Source: an uncultured Poribacteria bacterium (GTDB lineage: Bacteria > Poribacteria > WGA-4E > WGA-3G). Taken from it: DNA of 64,000 nt. This document shows, in pieces, positions 6,040 through 63,581 of the stretch. The position numbers and the translations under genes are program-made. Each line of letters starts with the position of its first letter. Position 1 is the first letter of the stretch. Below the pieces are notes generated by a model that saw only the letters and a list, made by a program, of their open reading frames with translations, was not told where the DNA came from and ran no database searches. The stretch is from NCBI GenBank assembly GCA_951812525.1, contig OX638316.1, positions 4,396,506 to 4,460,505 on the forward strand. The letters are read 5' to 3'.

Positions 6040-6241
6040 GGTGATTAAGACGACTCATAACCGGTAATATGTGGTGTCAATTGACTGACTCAGGACTTTC
6101 AAGATTAGAGGATTCATAGGATTATCGTTTCTGTCTCTTGGTTGAAAATCGTTCTTCATTGCTTATTGCGTTATTTTTCTCAACTTCATTTAGATTTCAG
6201 TCTTTGTGGGGCATGCCCTGTTAGATGATGTCTGGCAGCTT

Positions 6242-6258
6242 GCAAACTAACAGTTTGC
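6242..6258. repeat. Short hairpin in the leader of the LamG gene
   Basis: GCAAACT, loop AAC, AGTTTGC: a perfect 7-bp stem 27 bases ahead of the LamG start. It has no T-run. It may be a dispersed hairpin repeat or an mRNA structure near the ribosome-binding site. Confidence 0.35.
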
Positions 6259-6284
6259 GGTACACAAACGCAACGGAGGACAAA

Positions 6285-7058
6285 ATGATTAGCAGCACTC
6301 GGGGACAAACCTTTGTTTTAGCCGTTATAGTGGCTGTTTTAATGGCTACAAACGTAGCACACGCCCGCCAAGCGATTACCGATGGGCTGGTGAGTTACTG
6401 GTCATTTAATAAAGATACGGTCACAGGTAAAGCGGTTGAAGATATTTTTGGCACCAACGATGGAACAATGGATGGGAATGTCGAGGTCGTTAACGGTAAA
6501 GTCGGCGAGGCACTTAAGTTTAGTGGAGGCCATGTTGATTGTGGCGCAGGGAACGATTTAACCGAGATTGGTGATCAAATTACATTAGAGATGTGGATAA
6601 AGCCTGAAAAAGCTGGATGGGCGATTATCGCAGGCATATCAAGGTCAGGAAACAATTCTTATGTGATTGCGTGGTCAGACCAAACTCGTGTTGATTTTAA
6701 TCTCTGGAACGGTGTCTTAGAGACTTGGCCCTTCCACAGTTTGGCTCAGCCTGATGTAAATAAATGGCATCACGTCGCTGGCGTTTACGACGGTTCTAAA
6801 GCGATAATTTACATTAATGGTGAAGAGGATAGTAATAAAAAATTCGAGGGCGATCTCAAACATAATGGAGAGAATTTTTGGATGGGTGCCAGAAAATCGG
6901 ATGGGCTTCCTTTCAATGGTCTTCTTGACGAACTTCGTCTCTACAACCGAGGCCTAAGTCAAGCGGAGATTGAACAGAACCGTGACGCCGTGGGACTTGC
7001 TGTCGAACCGACTGAGAAATTGACACTCACTTGGGGAAGCCTAAGAGCGTCAAAATAA
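6285..7058 (+). CDS. Secreted LamG-domain protein with WGSLRASK tail
   Basis: A 257-residue exported protein. The ATG at 6285 has GGAGGA upstream and gives a clean signal peptide (residues 1-24, hydrophobic FVLAVIVAVLMATNVAHA). One LamG/concanavalin-like β-sandwich follows: DGLVSYWSFN opening, HVDCGAGNDL, ITLEMWIKP, the WHHVAGVYDG strand near residue 165, and GLLDELRLYNRGLS near the end. Such domains bind carbohydrate or act as recognition modules. The last 20 residues end in EKLTLTWGSLRASK, a tail shared with three other exported proteins in this window. An upstream start 60 bases earlier is open but lacks a ribosome site. Confidence 0.85.
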   Translation: MISSTRGQTFVLAVIVAVLMATNVAHARQAITDGLVSYWSFNKDTVTGKAVEDIFGTNDGTMDGNVEVVNGKVGEALKFSGGHVDCGAGNDLTEIGDQITLEMWIKPEKAGWAIIAGISRSGNNSYVIAWSDQTRVDFNLWNGVLETWPFHSLAQPDVNKWHHVAGVYDGSKAIIYINGEEDSNKKFEGDLKHNGENFWMGARKSDGLPFNGLLDELRLYNRGLSQAEIEQNRDAVGLAVEPTEKLTLTWGSLRASK

Positions 7059-24088: not shown

Positions 24089-24177
24089 TATTCGACCGAT
24101 TCCGAAAGCGTTAAGACCATATCAGAAATCTTTCACAGATGCGGAAATATGCCCATTTTCGCAAGGAGAAAAGGACT

Positions 24178-25020
24178 ATGAAAACGCTATTCTATCTCCT
24201 CACGCTCTCCCTGACTATCGTAACACTCTCATACAACGGATACACGGCACCAGTCGTCACGGACGGGCTTGTAAGTTATTGGACGTTTGACCAGAAAGAC
24301 GTCGCTGGTGGTGCAGTAAAAGATGTCTGGGGCAAAAACGATGGAAAAATTGTTGGTGCGCCGAAAGTCGTGGGTGGGAAAGTCGGAGATGCTCTCGAAT
24401 TTGATGGGAGCGACGATTATGTTAACCTAACAAACCTCGGCAACTTTGGTGAGCAGGTAGCTTCATCTACCTTTGAAGCCTGGGTTAAAACGAGTTTCAA
24501 GAAAGACTGGACGACGCTTTTCAAAGTTCTTGATCAGGGTTGTAACATGGCATGGGCAATCGATGTCAACCGGAGTGCGAAAGCGGGATTCCCGTTTGCT
24601 GAGGACATTGTCCACTACTACGTCCGTCAGAAATCAGGGGCTGGCTGCAATGCAATCGCTGTTGAGATTGAGTTTCCATTGTCGGATGGTAAATGGCATC
24701 ACATCGTTTTTGCAATTGAAGACGCTGGCAAATCCGAGATTAGCATTTATATGGACGGAGAGCCACAGGAGGTAATCGTAGGTTCTGCAAAAGATCTCGA
24801 CACCTTTATTCCGTTTGTGGAACCGGTTTATATCGGCGCGGCGAACAACCGTGGGACGGTCGAACGTCACTTCCCCGGTCTCATTGATGAAGTCCGTATT
24901 TACGATCGTCCGCTTACCGCTGGTGAAGTGACCCGGAATTTTGAATCGAAAATCGGACTCTCTGTACAAGCAGCTGAGAAATTACCTATCGTGTGGGGAA
25001 CACTCAAGGCAAATAGGTAA
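24178..25020 (+). CDS. Secreted LamG-domain protein with WGTLKANR tail
   Basis: A 280-residue exported protein. Residues 1-24 (LFYLLTLSLTIVTLSYNGYTA) form a signal peptide. The LamG domain shows DGLVSYWTFD, VGDALEFDGSDDYVNL, STFEAWVKTSFKKDW, KWHHIVFAI and PGLIDEVRIYDRPL in the expected order. The last 15 residues, AEKLPIVWGTLKANR, match the tail of three other exported proteins here. The ATG at 24178 has AAGGAG upstream; the longer frame upstream is not supported. A PhyH gene starts 17 bases after the stop. It may be a surface carbohydrate-binding protein. Confidence 0.85.
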   Translation: MKTLFYLLTLSLTIVTLSYNGYTAPVVTDGLVSYWTFDQKDVAGGAVKDVWGKNDGKIVGAPKVVGGKVGDALEFDGSDDYVNLTNLGNFGEQVASSTFEAWVKTSFKKDWTTLFKVLDQGCNMAWAIDVNRSAKAGFPFAEDIVHYYVRQKSGAGCNAIAVEIEFPLSDGKWHHIVFAIEDAGKSEISIYMDGEPQEVIVGSAKDLDTFIPFVEPVYIGAANNRGTVERHFPGLIDEVRIYDRPLTAGEVTRNFESKIGLSVQAAEKLPIVWGTLKANR

Positions 25021-48287: not shown

Positions 48288-51200
48288 TTAATCATCAGCT
48301 GGGGTCGCAGCACTTAATAACTCTTCGTCAGAAACGGGTTGGAACCGTTGTTCTGGATTTTTCAGGAAGATACGACGTAGGTCAGCCGTGATGGCGTACA
48401 ACGCTGGCATCACAAATAGGGTCATCAAGGTGGCAACGGAGAGACCAAAAATAATCGTATTTGCCATCGGCATCCAGATCGGCGATTTTCCACCTAAACC
48501 GATTGCCATCGGAATGAGACCAATAATTGTCGTCAGTGAGGTGAGAATGATCGGACGCAGCCGGACACTTCCGCCTTTCAGAATGGCATACCACTTGTTG
48601 TAACCATCCTCACGGTACTTGTTGATGAAATCGATAAGGACGATCGAATCGTTGACTACGATACCAGCGAGTGCGACTATGCCAAACATTGCGACTATGC
48701 TTAGGGTCGCATTGGAAAGCAAGAGTCCGACCATCGCACCTATCATGCCGAACGGAACGGCAAACATAATGATAATCGGTTGTATAAACGACTTGAATTG
48801 CGCCCCCAATACGACATAGATTAACAATAGCCCAACAATGAACAACTTCCACAACTCGGAAAAGGATTCCATAACTTGATCGAAAAGCCCCCGAAAATCG
48901 AGCTGGTATCCCGGATATAGGGATTCCACGTTAGCGAAGGCACTAATGAGTTCTTGATTTACTTTAACGGGTGTCGTTTTTGCTCTATCTACTGACGCAT
49001 AGACCGAGATTGCCCGCTCGCCACCGAATCGACGAATATCTGCGTATCCCTTCTCTTCTACGATGTCGGCGACATCTTTGAGCGGTACAATAGCACCAGT
49101 GGGTGTTGCAATCAATAGATTATTCAGTTCTGCGAGATTATTAAGGGTGTCTTCCTCGTATTTGACGATGACATCAATTGCCTCATCTGCTTCCCGATAG
49201 GTTGTCGCTTTGGCACCCTCAATGGCGGTACGCACCGTTTGTGCAACTTGGAACGTGGTTAACCCGTATTGATGTGCTTTCTCTGGCTTCAAGTAGATAC
49301 GCAATTCAGATTTACCGGTGCGAAAGTCATCATAAATATCGTAGACCCCATCCATCTGGGTTAGTGAAGTCTGAAGAACGGCAGCGAATTCGGTGAGATT
49401 CTCAAATCTGGGTCCCTTTACCTTGACCTCCACATCTTCTCCCTGTGGAGGACCACCTTCTTGTGTAATGAAATTCAGTTGTTCAATTCCACTAATTGTT
49501 GCAGTCTTCGTTCGTAGGTCTGCAATGATTTCATCAACGCCTCGGATCCGCTCCTGTTTTGGTGTAAGTTCAACAATAACTTCTCCGAAATTTGAGCCGT
49601 AAGCAACCCCCCTGATCAGGCCCGATGTGAGTGTGTGCAAGCCGATGTTACTGACGATCGCAGCAACTTCGGTTGATGGAAGTTCTTTAGCGACTTTTTC
49701 AATTTGGGCAATTACGCCTGCTGTTTCTTGGATGCCGTAAGAGATCGGCATTTCCGCTCTGACATAAAATTGTGGGAAATCTTCACCGGGGAAGAGTTCC
49801 TTGTCGAGAACTAAGAATGCTCCGACACACGCAATCAAGCCGATAAAGAGAACACTGCCAACAAAGGCATATCGCCATCGGATTGTTATTTTAAGGACTT
49901 TAACATATCGATTCCGAACGAGTTCAAACCATCTGTTAGTGCGTGCTTTTCGGTTTTCTGCTTTTCCCCACTCGGAAACGTGTGCCGGTAAAATCACGAA
50001 GACTTCAAAGAGAGAAGCAATCAACACCAGAATCGCCATAATCGGCACAACCCGCATAAACTGTCCAGAAACACCGGACATAAACATCAACGGACCAAAA
50101 GCGCAGATCGTCGTCAAACTTGCCGCCAGAACTGGCCAGCCAACCTCTTCTGCACCACGGATCGCAGCAACTTTTGGAGATTTCCCTGCCTCAATATGAC
50201 GGTAAATATTTTCTATGACGACAATAGCGTCATCTACAACGATTCCGACAACTAAGATAAGCCCAAATAGGGAGACCCCGCTCAGTGTATAACCTGCGAT
50301 GGACATAAACCAAAATGTTGCCATGAACGCGACAGGTATACCGAGTGCAGCGAATAGGGCGTTTCGCCAACCGATAAACAGGAGGAGCATTAGGACGACA
50401 AGCACCAAACCGAAAAACGCATTTGTTTCAAGAATACCCAATCGTTCCTTGAGAACAACCGAATAGTCGTTAACTGCTGTCAACTCAGCACCTTCAGGTA
50501 GATCTCTTCTCCGCTGTTCAATTAGCTCTCGGAGTTCGGCAACCAATGCTATTATGTTTCCTTCTGTCTTTTTCTGCACACTCAGGCTAATAGAAGGACT
50601 CCCATTGATACGCGACAGGGTTCTGGTTTCTTCGTAAGTATCCGAAACAGTTGCGACATCGTTGAGTCGGAGCGGCGTTCCTGTCGGTTGAACGGCGATG
50701 ATGGTTTCACCAATCTTATCAGGATTGGCGAACTCACCCATCGTTCGCACCATGAACTCCGTGTTGCCGAGTTCCATCGTGCCAGCTGGTAGATTCAAGT
50801 TACTAGCACCGATTGCAGTAACAACAGAGGCAATGGGAATTTGATACGCTTTCAACCGATTTGGGTTCACCTCAATCCATATTTCCCTTTCCCGAAAACC
50901 GGCTATTCGGACGGAGGCAATGTTTTTGATGTCTAAAATTTCATCTTTTAGGTTTTCGGCAATATCTCGCATCTGTGTTTCGGAGATGTTTCCTCCTACG
51001 ACAATTGTCAACATGGGGAAACCGGACGAGATATCAAGATCTTCGATCCTCGGATCGTCTAAAATCTCCTCTGGTAGCTCATTGACCTGCTCGACAGCAG
51101 TGCGGAGATTTTCGAGTTCCTTATCGAAATCCCGGTCGCTCATCTCTTCAAAATTGACAGCGATAACCGACCTGCCCTCTGAAGAGGTAGAAAACAGTAG

Positions 51201-51437
51201 GTCGATTTTGTTGACGTTCTCCTCAATAGCGTCTTCAATAGGGGCGGAGACGAGTTTTTCAACCTCTTCGGGAGAAGCTCCTGGATATAAGGTTGTTACG
51301 ACTGCGCTCTGTAGTGCGATTTCTGGTGTGAGTTCGCGTGGTAGGTTTATCCATGCGTACAACCCGAAAATGATGATGATAATCATCAACATGTTCGCTA
51401 AAACAGGGTTGTTCACAGATATTTTGGGGATAGACAT
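48288..51437 (-). CDS. RND efflux permease, copy 1
   Basis: A 1049-residue RND-family inner-membrane transporter. It shows the first TM (NPVLANMLMIIIIIFGLYAW), two large periplasmic loops, and TM4 with the proton-relay pair in GIVVDDAIVVIENIYRH, close to AcrB-type pumps. The C-terminal half repeats the layout (GIVVNDSIVLIDFINKY). No fusion protein or outer-membrane partner is adjacent, so these must be encoded elsewhere. It is strikingly similar to the gene just upstream (51557-54784), with almost identical DNA blocks. The start lacks a clear ribosome site, and a 12-bp hairpin lies between the two genes. Confidence 0.9.
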   Translation of the reverse strand: MSIPKISVNNPVLANMLMIIIIIFGLYAWINLPRELTPEIALQSAVVTTLYPGASPEEVEKLVSAPIEDAIEENVNKIDLLFSTSSEGRSVIAVNFEEMSDRDFDKELENLRTAVEQVNELPEEILDDPRIEDLDISSGFPMLTIVVGGNISETQMRDIAENLKDEILDIKNIASVRIAGFREREIWIEVNPNRLKAYQIPIASVVTAIGASNLNLPAGTMELGNTEFMVRTMGEFANPDKIGETIIAVQPTGTPLRLNDVATVSDTYEETRTLSRINGSPSISLSVQKKTEGNIIALVAELRELIEQRRRDLPEGAELTAVNDYSVVLKERLGILETNAFFGLVLVVLMLLLFIGWRNALFAALGIPVAFMATFWFMSIAGYTLSGVSLFGLILVVGIVVDDAIVVIENIYRHIEAGKSPKVAAIRGAEEVGWPVLAASLTTICAFGPLMFMSGVSGQFMRVVPIMAILVLIASLFEVFVILPAHVSEWGKAENRKARTNRWFELVRNRYVKVLKITIRWRYAFVGSVLFIGLIACVGAFLVLDKELFPGEDFPQFYVRAEMPISYGIQETAGVIAQIEKVAKELPSTEVAAIVSNIGLHTLTSGLIRGVAYGSNFGEVIVELTPKQERIRGVDEIIADLRTKTATISGIEQLNFITQEGGPPQGEDVEVKVKGPRFENLTEFAAVLQTSLTQMDGVYDIYDDFRTGKSELRIYLKPEKAHQYGLTTFQVAQTVRTAIEGAKATTYREADEAIDVIVKYEEDTLNNLAELNNLLIATPTGAIVPLKDVADIVEEKGYADIRRFGGERAISVYASVDRAKTTPVKVNQELISAFANVESLYPGYQLDFRGLFDQVMESFSELWKLFIVGLLLIYVVLGAQFKSFIQPIIIMFAVPFGMIGAMVGLLLSNATLSIVAMFGIVALAGIVVNDSIVLIDFINKYREDGYNKWYAILKGGSVRLRPIILTSLTTIIGLIPMAIGLGGKSPIWMPMANTIIFGLSVATLMTLFVMPALYAITADLRRIFLKNPEQRFQPVSDEELLSAATPADD

Positions 51438-51556: not shown

Positions 51557-54500
51557 TTAATCATCAGCTGGGACTGCATCACCCAACAGATCATCCGCTG
51601 AAACGGTTTGGAAGCGTTCCTCTGGGTTTTTCAGGAAGACACCACGTAGGTCGGCTGTGATAGCATATAGGGCGGGCATCACAAACAGTGTCATTGTAGT
51701 TGCCAAGGCGAGACCGAAAATGATTGTATAAGCCATGGGCATCCAGATAGGTGATTTTCCACCTAAACCAACTGCCATCGGAATGAGTCCGAAAATAGTT
51801 GTCAGTGAGGTGAGAATGATCGGACGTAATCGGATACTCCCGCCTTTCAGAATCGCATACCACTTGTTAAATCCTCTTTCCCGATATTTGTTGATGAAGT
51901 CGATGAGGACAATCGAATCGTTCACCACAATCCCTGAGAGTGCGACGATGCCAAACATCGCTACCATACTAAGCGTCGCGTTTGCAAGGAGAAGCCCTAC
52001 CATCGCCCCTATCATTCCGAACGGAACAGCAAACATAATAACAATGGGCTGCAGAAACGATTTAAATTGCGCGCCTAAGACCACATAGATTAACAAGAGT
52101 CCAACAATAAATAATTTCCACAACTCAGAAAAGGATTCTATAATCTCATCGAAAACCCCTCGAAAATCAAGCTGGTATCCGGGATATAGGGTTTCGACAT
52201 CGGCGAATGTACCGATTAACGCCTGATTCACTTTAACAGCAGTCGTTTTTGTAGTATCTACGGAGGCGTAGACCGTGATTGCTCGCTCACCGTCGAATCG
52301 GCGAATATCGGAATATCCCTTCTCCTGGGTAATATCTGCGACATCCTTGAGTGGAACAATAGCACCGGTGGGGGTCGCAATTAGGAGATTACTAAGTTCT
52401 ACAAGGTTCGTGAGGTTATCTTCCTCGTATTTGACTACGACATCAATTGCTTCGTCTGCTTCACGATAGGTTGTGGCTTTTGCACCTTCAATAGCAGTGC
52501 GAACCGTTTGTGCAACTTGGAATGTGGTAACCCCGTATTGATGTGCTTTCTCGGGTTTCAGATAGATGCGAAGTTCAGATTTTCCAGTACGGAAGTCATC
52601 ACGGATATCATAAACACCGTCCGTCTGCATGAGTGATGCCTTCAGAATATCAACGAGTTCTATAAGTTGCTCAAATCTTGGTCCCTTCACCTTAACTTCA
52701 ACATCGGAGCCTGTTGGAGGACCGCCTTCCTGCGTGATGAAATTCAACTCTTCAATCCCACTAATTGTTGCGGTTTTCGTCCGTAGTTCTGCGATAATAT
52801 CATCTACACCGCGGGTGCGCTCCTGCTTCGGTGTGAGTTCAACAATAACTTCTCCAAAATTTGAGCCATAAGTAACGCCTTCCAGAATGCCTGATGTAGG
52901 CGTGTGTATACCGATATTGCTGACGATTGCAGCGATTTCATTTTTGGGGAGTGTTTCGGCAGCTGCTTCAATCTGGGCGATTATACCTGTTGTCTCTTGC
53001 ATACCGTATGAGGGAGGCATCTCGGCTTTGACATAAAATTGTGGAAAATCTTCGCCTGGGAAGAGTTCTTTGTCAAGAATTAAGAATGCCCCAACACAGG
53101 CAACCAAGCCGATGAAGAGAACACTTCCGACGAAGGCATATCGGTGTCGGATTGTCACTTTCAGAATTCTGACATATCGATTCCGTATAAGGTCAAAAAC
53201 CGTTCCGAACCAAGCCAAAAAGCCAACGATAAGAACGGTTAAGGAAAAGGCACCACTGGATCGTGTCCGAAGTCCTTCAAGTCTGCTGCGTCCTGTGCGA
53301 GGTTTAGGTCTTCCCCACTCGGAGACGTGTGCCGGTAAAATCACGAAGACTTCAAAGAGAGAAGCAATCAACACCAGAATCGCCATAATTGGCACGATCC
53401 GCATAAATTGTCCAGGAACGCCGGACATAAACATCAATGGACCAAAAGCACAGATCGTCGTCAAACTTGCCGCCAGAACTGGCCAGCCGACCTCTTCTGC
53501 CCCTCGAATGGCAGCAACTTTCGGAGGTTCGCCTGCCTCAATATGCCGGTAGATGTTCTCTACAACAACAATAGCGTCATCTACAACAATCCCCACCACT
53601 AAAATAAGCCCAAACAGGGAAACTCCGCTGAGTGAGTACCCTCCTACAGACATAAACCAAAACGTTGCCATAAATGCGACAGGTATGCCGAGTGCCGCGA
53701 ACATGGCATTCCGCCATCCGATAAAGAGGAGAAGCATCAACACAACAAGCATCAACCCGAAAAACGCGTTCGTTTCCAGAATGCCTAACCGCTCTTTTAA
53801 AATAACTGAGTAGTCGTTAACCGCTGTTAATTCGGCACCTTCAGGGAGGCCCCTTTCCCATTCTTTAACCAATTCCCGGAGTTCAGCAACTAACGCGATC
53901 GTGTTTCCTTCTGTCTTTTTTTGCACACTCAAGCTGATAGAAGGTTCTCCATGAATTCGCGATAAGGTCCTGGCTTCTTCATAGGTGTCTGAAACAGTCG
54001 CAACATCCTTCAGTCGGAGCGGGGTCCCTGTCGGTTGAACGGCAATGATGGTTTCACCAATCGTGTCTGGATTGGCAAACTCACCCATAGTTCGCACCAT
54101 GAATTCTGTATTGCCGAGTTCCATCGTGCCAGCTGGTAGATTCAAGTTACTGGCACCGATTGCGGTAACAACAGAGGCAATGGGAATTTGATATGCCTTC
54201 AACCGATCTGGGTCCACCTCAATCCATATTTCTCTTTCACGAAGCCCTGATATCTGGACGGAAGCGATGTTTTTGATGTCCAAGATTTCGTCTTTAAGAT
54301 TCTCGGCAATATCCCGCATCTGCGCTTCAGAGATTGTCCCACCAACAACGATTGTCAACATAGGGAAACCGGATGAGACATCGAGTTCTTCGACCTTTGG
54401 ATCGTCCAAAATCTCCTCCGGCAACTCATTCACCCCATCAACAGCCGTCCGGAGATTTTCCAGTTCCTTGTCGTAATCCCTGTCGCTCATCTCTTCAAAA

Positions 54501-54784
54501 TCGACAGAAATAACGGACCTGCCCTCTGAAGAGGTAGAAAACAGTAAGTCGATTTTGTTGACGTTTTCCTCAATTGCGTCTTCTATAGGGGCGGAGATGA
54601 GTTTTTCGACTTCCTCTGGCGAAGCACCTGGATATAGTGTTGTGACGTTTGCGCTCTGTAAATCGATTTCTGGCGTGAGTTCACGGGGTAGGTTTATCCA
54701 TGCGTACAACCCGAAAATGATGATGATAATCATTAACATATTTGCCAAGACCGGATTGTTCACGGATACTTTGGGGATGGACAT
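51557..54784 (-). CDS. RND efflux permease, copy 2
   Basis: A 1075-residue paralogue of the RND gene at 48288. It keeps the same TM4 pair (GIVVDDAIVVVENIYRH), LTTICAFGPLMFMSGV and GIVVNDSIVLIDFINKY. Between the first and second halves it has about 26 additional residues, including the hydrophobic SLTVLIVGFLAWFGTVF. The two genes lie head-to-tail in a likely operon, this one first. Such pairs can form heteromeric pumps like MdtB/MdtC. Substrate specificity cannot be inferred. The ribosome site AAGGAG is 13 bases from the ATG, longer than usual. Confidence 0.9.
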   Translation of the reverse strand: MSIPKVSVNNPVLANMLMIIIIIFGLYAWINLPRELTPEIDLQSANVTTLYPGASPEEVEKLISAPIEDAIEENVNKIDLLFSTSSEGRSVISVDFEEMSDRDYDKELENLRTAVDGVNELPEEILDDPKVEELDVSSGFPMLTIVVGGTISEAQMRDIAENLKDEILDIKNIASVQISGLREREIWIEVDPDRLKAYQIPIASVVTAIGASNLNLPAGTMELGNTEFMVRTMGEFANPDTIGETIIAVQPTGTPLRLKDVATVSDTYEEARTLSRIHGEPSISLSVQKKTEGNTIALVAELRELVKEWERGLPEGAELTAVNDYSVILKERLGILETNAFFGLMLVVLMLLLFIGWRNAMFAALGIPVAFMATFWFMSVGGYSLSGVSLFGLILVVGIVVDDAIVVVENIYRHIEAGEPPKVAAIRGAEEVGWPVLAASLTTICAFGPLMFMSGVPGQFMRIVPIMAILVLIASLFEVFVILPAHVSEWGRPKPRTGRSRLEGLRTRSSGAFSLTVLIVGFLAWFGTVFDLIRNRYVRILKVTIRHRYAFVGSVLFIGLVACVGAFLILDKELFPGEDFPQFYVKAEMPPSYGMQETTGIIAQIEAAAETLPKNEIAAIVSNIGIHTPTSGILEGVTYGSNFGEVIVELTPKQERTRGVDDIIAELRTKTATISGIEELNFITQEGGPPTGSDVEVKVKGPRFEQLIELVDILKASLMQTDGVYDIRDDFRTGKSELRIYLKPEKAHQYGVTTFQVAQTVRTAIEGAKATTYREADEAIDVVVKYEEDNLTNLVELSNLLIATPTGAIVPLKDVADITQEKGYSDIRRFDGERAITVYASVDTTKTTAVKVNQALIGTFADVETLYPGYQLDFRGVFDEIIESFSELWKLFIVGLLLIYVVLGAQFKSFLQPIVIMFAVPFGMIGAMVGLLLANATLSMVAMFGIVALSGIVVNDSIVLIDFINKYRERGFNKWYAILKGGSIRLRPIILTSLTTIFGLIPMAVGLGGKSPIWMPMAYTIIFGLALATTMTLFVMPALYAITADLRGVFLKNPEERFQTVSADDLLGDAVPADD

Positions 54785-54910: not shown

Positions 54911-55648
54911 TCAGTCTGCTTTGAGGGTCCCCCATTTAGTTGCTAACTTCTCTTGTGGGGAAACTGCTAATGGCTCAATTCCTTCGCCTTCAATCGAGAG
55001 TGTATCAACAAGAAACGTGACCGTCTGACCTCCCCAACTGTTCATGAAGCCGATCCCAACGCGTTCGACATCAAACTTATGGTTCCACGTTTTGTCTCCA
55101 GAGAGTTCCCATTCATCCTTCTCGCTTTCTCGATAGTAGCCGGAGAAGAGATCGTCCTCTTTGACAATCTTCAAGTGGAGCGGGACATCAAAGCCGGTCT
55201 GAAAGTGTCCTTTGTCTTGCCAACCGCCTTGAACCATACTCCCTATGAGCGTTTTTTGGGGTTGATTGGCTTCACCACCAAACAGTAAACAAGCGTAGTT
55301 CAAATCGTCATCACTGTAAAGGAAAATACCGATCCACGAATCGGCGGGTGTATCGGGTTCAGTGGAAAAAATCCCGCTAACCGTTATATTCTTCGCTGCG
55401 GTTTTTGGAATTTCCCGTTCAAGCATCGGTTTGTCAGGCGTCGTATGCCCCCATCCACCCTTCGGATTGGTCATCTGTAAGAAGCCGTCTTTGACTTCCC
55501 ATGTTGTAACTTTGTCGCGATAGTCACGAAATTCCCATCCTTCAACGAGTTCGTCGCCATCAAACGGGTCTGTCCATACATCGGCAGACCCCACTGCGAT
55601 AAAGCCTAACACCAAGGCACCGCAGATTAGAATCATAGACGTTTTCAT
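54911..55648 (-). CDS. Exported β-sandwich protein with WGTLKAD tail
   Basis: A 245-residue exported protein with a signal peptide (ILICGALVLGFIAVGSA). The mature part (TDPFDGDELVEGWEFRDYRD, VKDGFLQMTNP, then SWIGIFLYSDDDLNYACL) resembles a DUF1080/DUF1349-type concanavalin-like domain rather than a standard LamG. The last residues are QEKLATKWGTLKAD, the tail shared with three LamG proteins. The second of two close ATGs is used because AGGAGG lies 7 bases ahead of it. An extended -10 promoter lies upstream. A possible binding protein for a sugar or glycan. Confidence 0.82.
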   Translation of the reverse strand: MKTSMILICGALVLGFIAVGSADVWTDPFDGDELVEGWEFRDYRDKVTTWEVKDGFLQMTNPKGGWGHTTPDKPMLEREIPKTAAKNITVSGIFSTEPDTPADSWIGIFLYSDDDLNYACLLFGGEANQPQKTLIGSMVQGGWQDKGHFQTGFDVPLHLKIVKEDDLFSGYYRESEKDEWELSGDKTWNHKFDVERVGIGFMNSWGGQTVTFLVDTLSIEGEGIEPLAVSPQEKLATKWGTLKAD

Positions 55649-55676
55649 AGCCATTCCTCCTTTAAGAAGTGCAACT

Positions 55677-55812: not shown

Positions 55813-56592
55813 CTACCGGCTTGCTTTGAGGGTAGCCCATGTTATTGCCAATTTATCCGTCGGTTCAACGTTTAGTCCGCCAAGGGCTTTTGCCAATCCG
55901 TGTTCCACAATAGTTGCGAGATCGTCTTCGCTGAGAACGGTGTTAAAAATGGCGGCTTCATCGATAAGACCGACGAAGTATGAACCACCACCCCATTTAC
56001 CAATCTCAACGGGATTTGCTGTGAAAGCGGTTTTTCCGGGACGAGTGCTTACACCTGCTTTTTTACCATTTACATAGACAACGAGTTGCTCAGCTTTCTC
56101 GTTGATGTCATAAGTCGCTGCGAAATGGATCCACTTTTTTTCATCAGGAACGTGTGCGGAGGCTCTCGGTTCCCAACTTCCGCCGGGTTTGACGAACGCA
56201 GACATTCTATTGCCTTCCTGCGGCGGATCAATACGTAAGAGATACTCATCACTTTTCGCGATGAGTTGTCTCCAAGTAGAAATATCAGTTGCATAAAACC
56301 ATGCCATCATGGTGAGTTCGTCACCGAGTTGTAGTTCCGGTGTGGAATCGATTGACACCCACTGTGCGCCATCAAACTCAAGTGCTTTTCCGATTTTCCC
56401 GTCTTTCCATTTGGCACCATTGATTGTGCCATCGTGTCCGAATTCTGAAGAATCTTTAGTTGTTTTGCCTGCACCTTCATCAAGGAGCCACACACCAACG
56501 GCTGTTTCGGGATCGATTTCGGCGGAAATAACACATGGTAGTAGCCATGCGATTGAACAAGCTATGCCTAAAACTAAGATTAATTTTCGCAT
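55813..56592 (-). CDS. Exported LamG-domain protein with WATLKASR tail
   Basis: A 259-residue exported protein. Residues 1-24 (LILVLGIACSIAWLLPCVISA) form the signal peptide. The LamG domain opens AVGVWLLDEGAGKTTKDSS and includes HDGTINGAKW, LTMMAWFYATD, KWIHFAATYD and GLIDEAAIFNTVLSEDD. The ending, TDKLAITWATLKASR, again matches the shared tail. AAAGGAGA lies ahead of the ATG. The two secreted genes are on the same strand, with repeat A and a promoter between them, so they may be separately expressed. A role in carbohydrate or surface binding is likely. Confidence 0.85.
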   Translation of the reverse strand: MRKLILVLGIACSIAWLLPCVISAEIDPETAVGVWLLDEGAGKTTKDSSEFGHDGTINGAKWKDGKIGKALEFDGAQWVSIDSTPELQLGDELTMMAWFYATDISTWRQLIAKSDEYLLRIDPPQEGNRMSAFVKPGGSWEPRASAHVPDEKKWIHFAATYDINEKAEQLVVYVNGKKAGVSTRPGKTAFTANPVEIGKWGGGSYFVGLIDEAAIFNTVLSEDDLATIVEHGLAKALGGLNVEPTDKLAITWATLKASR

Positions 56593-57034: not shown

Positions 57035-58471
57035 ATGGACCAAAAAGAACAACTTATTGCTGACCTTTCTACACTCCTGGGTCCTAGAAATGTTCTAACG
57101 GATGCGACTGCCTTATCGGTATATGAATGCGATGCCGCCCCGTCTTTCAAGGCGATGCCAGATGTTGTTGTTTTCGCAGATACAGCACAACAAGTATCCG
57201 ATATTGTAAAGTTGGCGAACAAATACGAGGTACCCTTTATCGCTCGGGGCGGAGGCACTGGCTTGAGCGGTGGTATGCTCTCTGTCCAAGGTGGCATCAT
57301 TATTGCTCTCAATCGTATGGATCGTATCTTGGAGATAGATCTTGAAAACGAACGGGCAGTAATTGAACCTGGGGTCGTGAATCTCTTATTGACGGAGGCG
57401 GTGCAGAAAAGAGGTTATCACTACGCGCCCGATCCGTCGAGTCAGAAGGCATGTACAATAGGTGGAAATATCGCCGAAAATTCTGGTGGACCGCATACTT
57501 TGAAGTATGGTGTCACGTCCGACCACGTGCTTGGATTAGAAGTGGTTTTACCGGATGGCGAGATTATTGAACTGGGCGGTAGTGTGGAAGAAGCGATCGG
57601 TTACGATCTCCGCGGTGTGATGATCGGTTCCGAAGGTACATTCGGGATAGTGACCAAAGCTGTTGTACGTCTTACCCGTAATCCGCAAGCATATCAGACT
57701 GCGCTTGCTGTCTTTGAAACAATGGACGATGCTTCAAATGCGGTGTCAACAATTATCGGTGAGGGTATTATTCCTGCCGCACTTGAGATGATGGATAGTT
57801 TGGTTATTCGTGCTTTAGAAGAGGCTTTCCACTTTGGTTTTCCGCTTGATGCCGAAGCCATCTTGATTGTGGAACTCGACGGTATTCAGGCAGGCATGCA
57901 GAATCAGACAGACCAGATTTTAGAGATTTTCACGCAGCACAAGGCGCGGGATGTAAGCTACGCCAAAAATGAAGGGGAACGGCAGCAACTCTGGAAGGCA
58001 CGAAAAAGTGCGTTTGGCTCATTCGGACGACTCGCACCGAATTACATCACCCAAGATGGTGTTGTTCCGAGGACAACACTACCAAAGGTTTTACGGCGCA
58101 TCTCCGAAATTTCAGAAAAATACCAGATTCCGATTGCGAATGTGTTTCACGCCGGTGACGGTAACATTCATCCGATCGTTCTTTTTAACGAACGCGATGC
58201 CGATCAGTGCGAACGCGTAGAACACGTCAACAAGGAAATTCTGACGGTATGTGCTGAAGTCGGAGGTACTATCACCGGCGAACACGGCATCGGTGTTGAG
58301 AAAATGGATTACATGCCGCTGATTTTTAGTCCTGCTGATCTGCAAGTGATGGCAACGGTCAAAAGCATATTTAACCCGACCGGGCTATGCAATCCTGGAA
58401 AAGTATTCCCGACAGCCGAATCTTATGCGAAACTCGGTTTGCAATCCGATGGAATATGGATTAATTCTTAG
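57035..58471 (+). CDS. glcD: Glycolate oxidase subunit GlcD-like FAD protein
   Basis: A 478-residue FAD-linked oxidase of the GlcD/VAO type. PFIARGGGTGLSGGMLS is the FAD pyrophosphate motif, ACTIGGNIAENSGGPHTLKYG the second FAD region, and YDLRGVMIGSEGTFGIVTKA the next. The substrate-domain segments NVFHAGDGNIHP and GEHGIGVEK carry the conserved His. It oxidises glycolate or related 2-hydroxy acids (D-lactate is also possible), passing electrons to a GlcF-type iron-sulfur protein. glcE follows 81 bases later, but no glcF is next to them. AAGGA lies upstream of the ATG. Confidence 0.93.
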   Translation: MDQKEQLIADLSTLLGPRNVLTDATALSVYECDAAPSFKAMPDVVVFADTAQQVSDIVKLANKYEVPFIARGGGTGLSGGMLSVQGGIIIALNRMDRILEIDLENERAVIEPGVVNLLLTEAVQKRGYHYAPDPSSQKACTIGGNIAENSGGPHTLKYGVTSDHVLGLEVVLPDGEIIELGGSVEEAIGYDLRGVMIGSEGTFGIVTKAVVRLTRNPQAYQTALAVFETMDDASNAVSTIIGEGIIPAALEMMDSLVIRALEEAFHFGFPLDAEAILIVELDGIQAGMQNQTDQILEIFTQHKARDVSYAKNEGERQQLWKARKSAFGSFGRLAPNYITQDGVVPRTTLPKVLRRISEISEKYQIPIANVFHAGDGNIHPIVLFNERDADQCERVEHVNKEILTVCAEVGGTITGEHGIGVEKMDYMPLIFSPADLQVMATVKSIFNPTGLCNPGKVFPTAESYAKLGLQSDGIWINS

Positions 58472-58552: not shown

Positions 58553-59911
58553 ATGGAAAATTCACGTGCGCTGCACGATGAACTTAGCAACATTGTTGGA
58601 GAAGTAGGTGTCTTGCCAGAGGCAGAATCCGCATCCTACGCTTTTGATGGATGTCTCCCCAAGGTGGTCGTTTCGCCAGCATCTGTCCAGGAGATCCAAG
58701 ATGTTCTCCAATTTGCGGCAAAACGGGACATGTCTGTCATACCCGCTGGTGCAGGTACGAAGCTTGGTATTGGAAATCTTCCGCCGAAAGTAGATGTGGT
58801 CCTTGCAACGACGCGTTTGAACAGTATTATTGAATATGAACCGGCGGATCTAACCGTAACTGTGGAAGCCGGTATTCGCTTGACGGATCTGCAAAAGGAG
58901 TTGGCGAAACATCGACAGTACTTGGTTTTGAATCCACCTTATGCTGAGCGATGCACGATTGGGGGGATTGTTGCGACAAATGCGAGTGGGTCGTTTCGTC
59001 TTCGACATGGAACCGCGCGAAACCAAGTGTTAGGATTACGAGTTGTCCATGCGAACGGCACCGTCGTTAAGAGCGGCGGGAAAGTCGTGAAAAACGTTGC
59101 AGGTTATGATCTCAACAAGCTCTACATAGGTGCCTTTGGCACGCTGGGTATCATCACCGAAGTTGCGCTCAAGCTGTCCCCTATACCGACTCGGCAAGCA
59201 GCAATCGCGTCAGAATTTCAGGATATCCAAAACGCAGTCAACACAGGCTTAAGCATTGTAGGTTCACAGACCCTACCGATGTTTGTAAATCTATTTATCA
59301 ATTCCGATCCGATGCGTGTGGAAACCGATGGACAGGGATCCAATACGACAAACACAGGCAAATCCACACTGGTAACCGGATTCGGTGGTGATCCTGAAAC
59401 TGTGGTGTGGCAATTAGTTGAAAGCCAAGAAATAATGGAACAAAACGGTGCTATCGGTGTGACAACTATAGAGGGTGAAATGCACCAACGTCTTCAAGAG
59501 ACTATTCAGGAATTCTCGGCGGATAACGGGGAAACCGATCCTCAGCGCGTGATTGCCAAAGTAAACCTGAAACGCACCGATATTGCTGAGTTTGCTCGGC
59601 ACATTGCAGATTCAAGTTGGGGCAGCGACGTCCAAATGATGCTATTACTCGGAAGCGGTGTGTTGTATTTGACAATTTCTTTAATTGGAGAAACAGATTT
59701 CCAGTACCTCACCGATGTGTTGATGCAGCTGCGTCAGTCCGCCGTGGAGAAACGAGGGAACCTTATCATAGAAACCGCGCCCCCTGAATTGAAGCAGCAT
59801 ATCGACGTTTGGGGACCGGTTGGCGATACACTCAACTTAATGAAACAGGTTAAAGCCAAATTTGATGCGAATGGGTTGTTGAATCCTAGGAGGTTTGTTG
59901 CCAGTATTTAG
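58553..59911 (+). CDS. glcE: Glycolate oxidase subunit GlcE-like FAD protein
   Basis: A 452-residue FAD-binding protein of the GlcE type; many GlcE proteins are about 350 residues, so this one carries a longer C-terminal part. FAD motifs are VIPAGAGTKLGIGNLPP, RCTIGGIVATNASGSFRLRHG and GKVVKNVAGYDLNKLYIGAFGTLG. The final segment LMKQVKAKFDANGLLNPRRF matches the family ending. It acts with GlcD in 2-hydroxy-acid oxidation at the membrane. A glcF gene is not visible before the next gene, and a small hairpin follows, so it seems to be missing here or encoded elsewhere. Confidence 0.9.
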   Translation: MENSRALHDELSNIVGEVGVLPEAESASYAFDGCLPKVVVSPASVQEIQDVLQFAAKRDMSVIPAGAGTKLGIGNLPPKVDVVLATTRLNSIIEYEPADLTVTVEAGIRLTDLQKELAKHRQYLVLNPPYAERCTIGGIVATNASGSFRLRHGTARNQVLGLRVVHANGTVVKSGGKVVKNVAGYDLNKLYIGAFGTLGIITEVALKLSPIPTRQAAIASEFQDIQNAVNTGLSIVGSQTLPMFVNLFINSDPMRVETDGQGSNTTNTGKSTLVTGFGGDPETVVWQLVESQEIMEQNGAIGVTTIEGEMHQRLQETIQEFSADNGETDPQRVIAKVNLKRTDIAEFARHIADSSWGSDVQMMLLLGSGVLYLTISLIGETDFQYLTDVLMQLRQSAVEKRGNLIIETAPPELKQHIDVWGPVGDTLNLMKQVKAKFDANGLLNPRRFVASI

Positions 59912-60019: not shown

Positions 60020-60050
60020 GCAAGCCTATATGCAAAGGAGGGGGATTACT

Positions 60051-61718
60051 ATGGAAGAAAGAAGAAGGAGGATCTTGTGGATTGACAACGAGGTTTCTGA
60101 TGTACGGCAATCAAATGTCCAGACAGCAGATCGCTATTCTGAAAAGCAAACATATATCACATCAAAACCTTACGTTCCCTTTTTGGAATACCAAGGATAT
60201 GATGTGTCAGTAGCAAACAGTACCTCACATGGAATAAGTGCGCTCAAAGACCGGACGTATGATGCTGTTCTATTGAATTATGACGGACCGGCGCGAAAAG
60301 AAAATCTGCTTTCGCATATCCGGAACTCGGATGCACACATTCCTATTCTACTCTTAACACGGAAAGATGGAGAAGAAATAAGGCAGGAGGCAAGCCTTTA
60401 TGATGTCACCAACATCTTTATAATGCCGACAAACCCACCCGGCGATGCTTGTGAAATGATATTGTGCAAACAGTTGGCAGCGTCCCTAGCTTTTCTGATT
60501 GAAAAGCGAACAGTGCGTGCGTCGTACATGCCACAAGCTTACGTTCAAAACTTTAATAGCGGGTACATCTCGGACAGCGTAACCCAGGCACATAATCTCA
60601 CCACGGGCTGGCAAACATGGATCGACACTTACCTTAACCTGATCAAGTGGGACATTCAGCTTGACACGCTCCACAACGTAGACGAACTCAAAACCATCCA
60701 TGCAATACAAAAACAGGAAGCAAACGCTGCATTCGCGAATTATATTGAAGACAATTACAGCAGCTGGCTAGTGAATGAAGCGTCGCCTACCTTATCGGTG
60801 GATGTTATCTACAGATACGTTATCCCTGAACTTCAAGCTGGAAAACAGGTATTGTTTGTTGTTATGGATTGCATGCGGTTGGATCATTGGCTGAAAATTG
60901 AGCCGATACTCCACCCAATGTTCGATATAACAACGAATTACTATTATTCCATTCTTCCGACAGCCACTCGTTATGCCAGAAACGCCATTTTTAGTGGACT
61001 GTTCCCTCTTGAACTGGCTGAACGGCACCCACATTTATATGCAGAACCGGATCAAACACATACGAGCATTAACCGCTATGAGAAAGAACTCATGCGCTTA
61101 CAACTTGATCGACACGGTATCGCACTCAAGCCACCACCGCATTACTTCAAAATTTTTGACACACAAGGTGAGGCACAATACCTACAGTGGCTAAGTACCG
61201 CCGACCGTATTAGTTTAGAAGCAATCGTTGTCGATTTCCTTGATATGCTGACACACACACGGTACGAGACAGATTTACTCCGGCAGCTTATTCCAGATGA
61301 ATCGGCGTTTCGGACCCTTGTGCAGACATGGTTTCATCATTCATGGCTCTATAAGATATTCAGAATGGCTGCCGATCGCGGTATAACTATTGTCTTAACA
61401 TCCGACCACGGTTCACTACTCTGTCAAAATGCGGCAAAAATTTCAAGCCAAACTACCCTGACTACCGGATTACGGTTTAAAGAAGGAAAGCACATCACTT
61501 GCGATCCTAATGCCGGATATCTCATAACAGATCCGGAGACATATCGCTTACCCGGTAGCTCAGAAGGAAAAAGCTACATCCTCGCTAAAGAGGACTACTA
61601 TTTCATTTACGAAAGACAGTTCAATGTTTATAAAGAGCTATTCCACGGTAGTTTCCAACACGGTGGCATTTCGCTTGAAGAAATGATACTTCCTTGCATT
61701 GTGCTTGAACCAAAGTAA
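60051..61718 (+). CDS. PorX-like protein: degenerate receiver plus PglZ domain
   Basis: A 555-residue protein. Residues 6-150 look like a response-regulator receiver (RILWIDNEVSDV, YQGYDVSVANS, YDAVLLNYDGP, IPILLLTRKDG, FIMPTNPPG). The phospho-acceptor Asp position is Asn76, and the late Lys is Met. Residues 270-555 form a PglZ/alkaline-phosphatase-fold domain: LFVVMDCMRLDHW, SILPTATRYARNAIFSGLFP and IVLTSDHGSL carry its metal and nucleophile positions. This pairing is known from PorX, the Bacteroidetes type IX secretion regulator. AGGAGG lies ahead of the ATG at 60051; a GTG 114 bases earlier overlaps a terminator. dsbD follows after 15 bases. Confidence 0.8.
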   Translation: MEERRRRILWIDNEVSDVRQSNVQTADRYSEKQTYITSKPYVPFLEYQGYDVSVANSTSHGISALKDRTYDAVLLNYDGPARKENLLSHIRNSDAHIPILLLTRKDGEEIRQEASLYDVTNIFIMPTNPPGDACEMILCKQLAASLAFLIEKRTVRASYMPQAYVQNFNSGYISDSVTQAHNLTTGWQTWIDTYLNLIKWDIQLDTLHNVDELKTIHAIQKQEANAAFANYIEDNYSSWLVNEASPTLSVDVIYRYVIPELQAGKQVLFVVMDCMRLDHWLKIEPILHPMFDITTNYYYSILPTATRYARNAIFSGLFPLELAERHPHLYAEPDQTHTSINRYEKELMRLQLDRHGIALKPPPHYFKIFDTQGEAQYLQWLSTADRISLEAIVVDFLDMLTHTRYETDLLRQLIPDESAFRTLVQTWFHHSWLYKIFRMAADRGITIVLTSDHGSLLCQNAAKISSQTTLTTGLRFKEGKHITCDPNAGYLITDPETYRLPGSSEGKSYILAKEDYYFIYERQFNVYKELFHGSFQHGGISLEEMILPCIVLEPK

Positions 61719-61733
61719 TTGAGGAAACTAAGC

Positions 61734-63581
61734 ATGCTTAAAATTTTTAGACATCATAAGTCCATACTCTGGATACTACTAACGCTTAGTACGATAACTT
61801 TTCCGATATGCGTACAGGCACAGCTGGCTGACTTTGGGCTTGTTGAAAAGCCTCTTGCTGAAAAGCTTACCGCAAAAGGATACCTTTCTGTAGATAAAGT
61901 GCAACCGGGAAGTCAATTCCAAATTGCTGTTGTGGTAGAAATTGCTGAAGGTTGGCACGTCAACGCTAATCCGGCGGGTGAAGGGCTTATTGATACTGAG
62001 ATACGCCTCCCCGATACACCTTATCTCACTTTCGGGGAGGTTGTATATCCGACAGGAGAAGTGCTAAAAATTGATTCAATTGGAGAAGCCCCTGTCTACC
62101 ACGATACCATCACTATTGGTATCCAAGTTGACGCAAGTCAAGACGCACCTATCGAGCCGATGGTGCTGGATTTGCAGCTACACTATCAGGCGTGCAATGA
62201 CGATGTGTGTTTACAACCAGAAACCATTGCTTTTACCGTACCTGTTGAAATTGTCGGTATAGAAGCACTGGTTCAACGGATGAATGAAGCGGTTTTCGCC
62301 AATATCGAATTTGGAGCACCTCCGAGTTCAGGCAGCGATGAGGGAAACCTTGCGCGTGCGCTATCAGGCGGACAGGTATGGCTTGCCTTCCTACTCGTGT
62401 TCGCCGGAGGTATCCTGACGAGTTTGACACCGTGCGTCTATCCGCTTATACCGATTACTGTCTCCATCTTCGGCGCAAATGAATCAGCGGGACTCTTTAA
62501 ATCTTTTCTGCTCTCTGTTGTATATGTTCTTGGTATCGTTGTCACCTATTCAATTTTAGGCGTTGCTGTTGCATCAACAGGTGCGGTTTTCGGTCAGATA
62601 ATGGCAAATCCGTGGGTTGTCGGATTCATTAGTTTGATTCTGGTTTCACTTGGACTCTCGATGTTCGGGGTCTTTGAAATTCGGTTGCCGCATGCGGTGC
62701 AGAATCGTCTTAATACCGTTGGCGGCACCGGATTTGCTGGTGGATTCGCTATGGGAACGGTTGCCGGTGTGATCGCTGCGCCTTGCACGGGACCGGCGTT
62801 AGCGGTCGTGTTAACTTATATCGCGACGACAGGTAGCCTGTTCCTCGGTTTCTGGCTCATGTTCACCTACGCTCTCGGCATGGGGCTCCTCTTTATCGGC
62901 ATTGGCACTTTCTCAGGTCTGCTCTCTGCGCTCCCACGGTCAGGGGGGTGGATGTATGTTTTGGAAAACATCTTCGGCATTGCTATCATTACGATGGCAC
63001 TCTATTTTTTGAAAGATGTATTTCCACCGTTGCAGAACTTCCTTCAGAACTCGCTACCCTTTTTCGCGATTGCTGGTGGTTTAGTGCTGATTGGGCTGTG
63101 GCTCGGTAAGTTAACGGAACGTTTTAGTAGTATCTCTGGAGGCGTGCGAATCCGAAAGGCGTGTGGTCTCTTGCTGGCTATTCTCGGCACTTATATGCTT
63201 GTTGGTGGTATCCAACAACCCGCTGGCCCTCACCTGAATTGGGTTTATGACGAAACGGAAGGTCTTGAAATGGCTAAACGCGAGGATAAACTCGTAATGC
63301 TTGACTTTTATGCGTCTTGGTGTGCGGCTTGCAAGGAACTCGACCATAAGACTTACGCTGATCCAGCAGTGGCGGAGAAACTTGCTGATTATGTCAACGT
63401 CAAACTCGATTTTACGCGCAGTTCTGAGACCACCGAGGCATTAACGGAAAAATATCAGATTCCGGGATTACCTGTCGTCATCTTCATGGACGCTGAAGGG
63501 CAGGTCCTCAAGCGGTTTACAGGTTTTGTTGCGCCAGAAAAGATGCTCAGTGTTCTGAACGAGATTGAGAATGGTATGTAG
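61734..63581 (+). CDS. dsbD: Thiol:disulfide interchange protein DsbD
   Basis: A 615-residue DsbD. The signal peptide (residues about 8-30, ILWILLTLSTITFPICVQAQ) is followed by an N-terminal periplasmic domain with the Cys pair in YQACNDDVCLQP. The eight-TM domain contains LTPCVYPLIPITV and IAAPCTGPALAVVL with its two cysteines. The C-terminal thioredoxin domain has DFYASWCAACKELDHKTYAD. It carries electrons from cytoplasmic thioredoxin to periplasmic proteins or cytochrome maturation. The ATG at 61734 (GAGGAA 7 bases upstream) is used instead of a TTG 15 bases earlier. It is very close to the PorX-like gene. Confidence 0.93.
   Translation: MLKIFRHHKSILWILLTLSTITFPICVQAQLADFGLVEKPLAEKLTAKGYLSVDKVQPGSQFQIAVVVEIAEGWHVNANPAGEGLIDTEIRLPDTPYLTFGEVVYPTGEVLKIDSIGEAPVYHDTITIGIQVDASQDAPIEPMVLDLQLHYQACNDDVCLQPETIAFTVPVEIVGIEALVQRMNEAVFANIEFGAPPSSGSDEGNLARALSGGQVWLAFLLVFAGGILTSLTPCVYPLIPITVSIFGANESAGLFKSFLLSVVYVLGIVVTYSILGVAVASTGAVFGQIMANPWVVGFISLILVSLGLSMFGVFEIRLPHAVQNRLNTVGGTGFAGGFAMGTVAGVIAAPCTGPALAVVLTYIATTGSLFLGFWLMFTYALGMGLLFIGIGTFSGLLSALPRSGGWMYVLENIFGIAIITMALYFLKDVFPPLQNFLQNSLPFFAIAGGLVLIGLWLGKLTERFSSISGGVRIRKACGLLLAILGTYMLVGGIQQPAGPHLNWVYDETEGLEMAKREDKLVMLDFYASWCAACKELDHKTYADPAVAEKLADYVNVKLDFTRSSETTEALTEKYQIPGLPVVIFMDAEGQVLKRFTGFVAPEKMLSVLNEIENGM

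Follow-up and report, generated by a model that had tools for sequence, protein, structure and literature searches.

The gene porX2 of the window (the whole 64 000-nucleotide stretch of DNA, from the sponge-associated Poribacteria, that was analysed) encodes a member of the PorX family in which the receiver domain has lost the residues required for phosphotransfer and the PglZ domain has kept all of its catalytic residues. The product is a PorX paralogue and not a PorX response regulator: where a phosphorylatable receiver carries DD, D, T and K, it carries DN, N, T and M. The best explanation, which we hold to be moderately probable, is that PorX2 is a poribacterial PorX duplicate that has been uncoupled from its kinase and has lost phosphorylation, that has retained the phosphodiesterase (PglZ) half and that acts in the same secretion pathway as the second PorX of the genome, PorX1. 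Paralogy, separate conserved loci, a stepwise loss of the acceptor Asp, the Lys, the switch aromatic and the second acid, a full PglZ set and purifying selection are all read from the sequences; from the enzyme activity of PorX2 onwards, every step of the mechanism is what we infer.

The open reading frame of porX2 is intact (60051..61718, + strand, 555 residues) and a near-perfect Shine–Dalgarno sequence, AAAGGAGGGGG (60034..60044, +), precedes the ATG at 60051. The translated protein comprises a pseudo-receiver (residues 1–128; 60051..60434, +), a helical-bundle linker (approximately residues 132–262; 60444..60836, +; delimited by the secondary structure of the model) and a PglZ domain of the alkaline phosphatase superfamily (residues 263–555; 60837..61715, +). 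A score of 450.6 bits was obtained with the curated NCBIfam equivalog model T9SS_RR_PorX (NF052313; cut-off 300), and the closest entries in the PDB were the PorX crystal structures of Porphyromonas gingivalis and Flavobacterium johnsoniae (E = 9.6e-88). In an AlphaFold model based on an alignment of 60 sequences (mean pLDDT 85.5) the receiver keeps its β–α order, and both the helical bundle and PglZ fold are retained. The model was matched to PorX from the PDB along the whole chain (residues 4–555; VIA Z 54.6, r.m.s.d. 5.9, 506 residues), in line with the PorX-like build recognized in a preliminary description of this DNA.

The canonical PorX receiver carries, in F. johnsoniae numbering, the acid pair D11/E12, the acceptor D54, T82, Y101 and K104 (PMC10951265). 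The key columns of PorX2 are occupied by Asp12, Asn13, Asn76, Thr103, Ile122 and Met125, of which Asp12 and Thr103 are the only canonical residues left. The preliminary description had reported Asn at the phospho-acceptor position, Met at the conserved Lys and an insert of about 20 residues near the first loop, and all three stand: alignment with PorX proteins and column counts place Asn76 (codon 60276..60278, +) in the acceptor column, the Met is Met125 and the insert is of exactly 20 residues, held within residues 15–38 (60093..60164, +) between strand 1 and helix 1, with residues 15–32 predicted by AlphaFold to be disordered (pLDDT < 50). Three further changes had been overlooked, namely Asn13 (codon 60087..60089, +), with which the second acid of the metal pair is gone, Ile122 in place of the switch Tyr/Phe (Ile122 to Met125, 60414..60425, +) and a second insert of ten residues (130–139; 60438..60467, +) before helix 5, which is longest in the closest relatives of the window protein. 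The Pfam receiver model scored 23.8, below its cut-off of 30.2. Taken together, the alignment and the model describe a CheY fold without the catalytic residues, i.e. a pseudo-receiver. Leu113 in the receiver dimer face of PorX aligns with Ala144 of PorX2; this difference was considered and set aside as unspecific, PorX1 and another poribacterial PorX also being non-Leu at this position.

The phospho-Asp is absent from 59 of the 62 PorX2 rows of the alignment (61 distinct proteins; in all row counts the window protein appears twice, as the query and as L001, and distinct proteins number one fewer than rows). It is kept in 19/19 PorX1, 9/9 other poribacterial PorX and 38/38 PorX of other phyla, and the receiver, including the phospho-Asp, was intact in 30/30 Bacteroidota PorX, these being the best-scoring 30 from 247 genomes. 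Given its presence throughout the comparison sets, the missing Asp in PorX2 is not due to chance, and the PorX2 receiver very probably cannot be phosphorylated.

The phosphatase-fold half had been described as keeping its motifs, and it does. The PglZ fold is present both by Pfam (residues 265–461, E = 3.5e-15) and by the structural match given above, and the seven zinc and nucleophile residues D273, T306, D398, H402, D452, H453 and H537 are retained in PorX2 and invariant in 62/62 PorX2 rows and in all other PorX rows aligned. The roles of the residues of the two-zinc site and of the Thr nucleophile were taken from PMC10951265. These seven residues indicate a capacity for activity, which is not activity itself.

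The window genome, which consists of one 5.06 Mb contig, encodes a second PorX, PorX1 (C1:2324178-2325689; 42% identity to PorX2), which shares the domains and the catalytic PglZ residues of PorX2, has a canonical receiver (ILWIDDE, LLDQVMPG, LVKP) and is encoded directly 3' of a HisKA/HATPase kinase gene. PorX2 is therefore an extra copy and not a replacement. A PorX match was found in 83 of 85 poribacterial genomes. PorX2 was present in 67 of the 70 genomes of three families, f1–f3 (one copy being cut by a contig end), was not found in the other three (G016, G033 and G070) and occurred in 0/3 genomes of family f4. Nearly all genomes with PorX2 carry PorX1 too; the exceptions, e.g. G052, G028 and G041, are drafts or assemblies of several contigs, where PorX1 may have been missed. 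The locus order is kinase–porX1–RNaseG (RNase G) in essentially all PorX1 loci and glcE–porX2–dsbD in PorX2 loci, mostly with glcD ahead of glcE and with no adjoining kinase. In the window the neighbours, named from sequence, are a putative glcD-type FAD-linked oxidase (57035..58471, +), a putative glcE-type protein (58553..59911, +), which lies directly 5' in almost all PorX2 loci, and a putative dsbD-type thiol:disulfide transporter with a thioredoxin end (61734..63581, +). Since only 15 nt separate the porX2 stop codon from the dsbD ATG, the two genes are likely to be co-transcribed. Elsewhere in the window, two very similar RND-type transporter genes are arranged in tandem (48288-51437 and 51557-54784, −).

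In a tree computed without the receiver, PorX2 forms a single clade (SH-aLRT 100). Its deepest member, the second copy of genome G012, follows glcE and has an intact receiver (DD/D/T/F/K). The frame of this copy (L121:4484-6118, +) contains one in-frame TGA, which may be a sequencing error, the mark of a pseudogene or a case of recoding. The f2 and f3 copies retain Lys and Phe, with Asp in some and Asn or Ser in others; all copies read from f1, the family of the window genome, are without Asp, Lys and the switch aromatic. The Lys and the switch aromatic changed once each on the tree. Loss of the phospho-Asp required two events by parsimony, a single Asp-less clade is not rejected (AU p 0.49) and the loss thus occurred once or twice. 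The f1 orthologues also display an acid swap, the acceptor Asp being lost and an Asp or Glu gained two residues on. Values of dN/dS (Nei–Gojobori counts, pairs limited to a PglZ dS of 0.05–1) were 0.233 for the receiver, 0.13 for the linker and 0.061 for the PglZ domain of PorX2 (125 non-independent pairs), and 0.051, 0.060 and 0.041, respectively, for PorX1 (only 11 usable pairs, also non-independent). The PorX2 receiver, with a dN/dS approximately fivefold that of PorX1, is accordingly relaxed yet under purifying selection, and the constraint on its PglZ domain is close to that on PorX1's.

The raised receiver ratio and the three genomes without PorX2 would fit a redundant copy that is being lost. 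Such functionless decay is contradicted by the low dN/dS of the PglZ domain and its invariant catalytic residues, and by an open frame retained in nearly all f1–f3 genomes; we consider it highly improbable. Improbable to a lesser degree is that Asp/Glu78 serves as a relocated acceptor or, as a built-in phosphomimic, imitates the phosphorylated state. An acid at this position (D+2; Asp78 codon 60282..60284, +) is found in 45 of 52 f1 rows and in 0/76 PorX rows outside f1, which speaks for such a role, but the Lys, the second acid and the switch aromatic are gone as well, of the 52 rows 11 have Glu at position 78 and seven have no acid there, with up to four changes of the acid on the tree, and the f3 copies that are without Asp76 and still have the Lys show no acid at D+2. 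D78 as the true acceptor, an objection foreseen in the preliminary description, was rejected, as D78 falls in a column other than that of the acceptor and Asp is not conserved there. The chance that PorX2 is a BREX-type PglZ defence protein is negligible: BREX PglZ models match weakly and the BREX PglZ fold does match, but the best model score is 85.9 against a cut-off of 250 while the PorX cut-off is far exceeded, and no BREX genes were recognized among the neighbours; this identity was rejected on scores and context.

The main role of PorX2 might instead be to pair with phosphorylated PorX1, as an obligate partner or as a modulator, in the way that WhiI pairs with BldM, with the pseudo-receiver locked in one half of an X-shaped dimer and the pair sensing both the kinase signal and the expression of glcDE–dsbD. 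We regard this as possible and on balance unlikely. Consistent with it, PorX1 accompanies PorX2 in nearly all genomes, PorX dimerization is mediated by receiver and APS faces (PMC11320123) and heterodimers between pseudo-receiver proteins and other response regulators have been documented (PMC12632262). However, the second insert lies directly before helix 5 and adjoins the usual receiver dimer face, the identity between the two proteins is only ∼42% and G028 (four contigs) has PorX2 and no second PorX match.

The premise that PorX, as a regulator of type IX secretion, belongs to the Bacteroidetes proved wrong, since PorX is found in almost every poribacterial genome as stated above and all 12 other PorX-positive genomes tested carry SprA. 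Kamke et al. (2014) reported Poribacteria with sorting-tail (TIGR04183) proteins, structural Por-system genes not being reported (PMC3909097). Matches to the SprA model were obtained in 84/85 poribacterial genomes. In the window genome the SprA-like frame (C1:1481073-1487819, −; 2248 residues) scored 140.9 bits (E = 2.7e-41), short of the 200 bits set as equivalog cut-off. A profile built from poribacterial SprA-like copies gave no match in a sequence search of the PDB; in profile–profile comparison, a profile of nine such copies aligned with SprA of other PorX-positive genomes at probability 100 (E = 8.6e-60, 1078 columns). PorV-family matches above the cut-off occurred in 85/85 poribacterial genomes and at 16 places in the window genome, with a best score of 224.9 bits against a cut-off of 90; a PorV-like protein is encoded at C1:502562-503542. 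The match to PorV (6h3i_F) is weak (E = 8.7e-4), and that to the Pfam PorV model lies slightly below its cut-off. Three C25 proteins of the window genome (L174, L175 and L176), with propeptide and tail domain, are PorU-like at ∼260 bits against a cut-off of 420. The sorting domain TIGR04183 was matched at 73 places, nearly all above the cut-off, among which FlgD_ig-like domains may be included. In the window itself, four mostly LamG-like proteins (6225-7058, +; 24139-25020, +; 54911-55654, −; 55813-56592, −) share a C-terminal tail like GLAVEPTEKLAITWGTLKASR, possibly a lineage-specific sorting or anchoring tag; a profile of this type of tail matched 125 places in the window genome, some over the tail alone.

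Of the secretion components named in the preliminary description, SprA-like and PorV-like proteins were recovered and PorL and PorM gave no match. The PorL/GldL model, which was negative in the window genome, also missed GldL in SprA/PorU-positive Balneolaceae, Zixibacteria and Tariuqbacter, and the controls for PorM/GldM, likewise negative in the window genome, gave no match either. The SprA-, PorV- and PorU-like proteins and the sorting tails indicate that poribacterial PorX accompanies a distant T9SS translocon, and by homology the genomes with PorX2 do encode such an outer-membrane translocon. A literature search that covered few subscription papers found no report on Poribacteria that describes PorX or structural genes of a T9SS; what is new here is the SprA/PorV/PorU-like set, where the 2014 study had tails without structural genes.

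The favoured explanation, the kinase-uncoupled duplicate, would proceed as follows. PorX was duplicated anciently in Poribacteria; PorX2 would then have left the kinase operon and settled between glcE and dsbD, after which its receiver would have lost phosphorylation and the zinc-dependent phosphodiesterase half would have been kept. The pseudo-receiver may serve as a dimerization or docking module or scaffold, and the enzyme would be active without a kinase, by default or through metal. Its output could depend on expression with glcDE–dsbD, on metal loading or on association with PorX1, and PorX homology and co-occurrence in genomes suggest that it acts on the secretion pathway of PorX1. The phosphodiesterase of F. 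johnsoniae PorX requires metal and not phosphorylation (PMC10951265), PorX dimerization is possible with zinc alone and, in P. gingivalis, 50–61% of gingipain activity remains with phosphorylation-null PorX (PMC11320123). When phosphorylation of D54 is prevented in F. johnsoniae PorX, binding to GldL stops (PMC10951265); the loss of the Asp in PorX2 could therefore equally mark a changed partner or function.

No GGDEF match was found in the window genome in a search that was positive in eight control genomes, which makes pGpG from c-di-GMP an unlikely natural substrate of PorX2; the substrate may be another nucleotide or oligonucleotide. The genome apparently has no c-di-GMP synthesis. The preliminary description had expected a different trigger for a non-phosphorylatable PorX, which holds in so far as control other than by a PorY-type kinase is concerned, but a canonical kinase-linked PorX1 is present in the same genome. 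A broader and more speculative possibility, to which we give limited credence, is that the T9SS of Poribacteria is motor-less or differently powered and stands under two PorX proteins, one kinase-read and one with a dead receiver, with a nucleotide signal that does not derive from c-di-GMP breakdown and with the output of the dead-receiver PorX set by metal, by expression of the redox/glycolate operon or by heterodimerization. PorX2 amounts to a natural experiment in which phosphorylation has been removed and the enzyme kept, with intermediates surviving and the ordinary copy in the same cell, and it makes the disputed separate roles of PorX phosphorylation and phosphodiesterase activity directly testable.

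Among known systems, PorX2 is homologous over its whole length to PorX of P. gingivalis and F. johnsoniae (PDB entries 7pv7, 8ted and 8p6f), with the same three-domain build and fold and with the zinc ligands and nucleophilic Thr all present. It differs from these proteins in being without the acceptor Asp, the Lys, the second acid and the switch Tyr, in having two inserts, in adjoining glcE and dsbD and in being a second copy in its genome. Unlike PorX2, poribacterial PorX1 has an intact receiver and adjoins a histidine kinase and RNase G. BREX PglZ has the PglZ fold and the metal site in common with PorX2; the N-terminal parts and the context differ and the scores are under the cut-off. A review of pseudo-receivers (PMC12632262) mentions neither PorX nor PglZ in its text. 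The regulators FrzS, WhiI and CmrT treated there resemble PorX2 in having a CheY fold without the phosphotransfer residues and in the loss of Y–T coupling, whereas the effector of PorX2 is of the metallo-phosphodiesterase fold.
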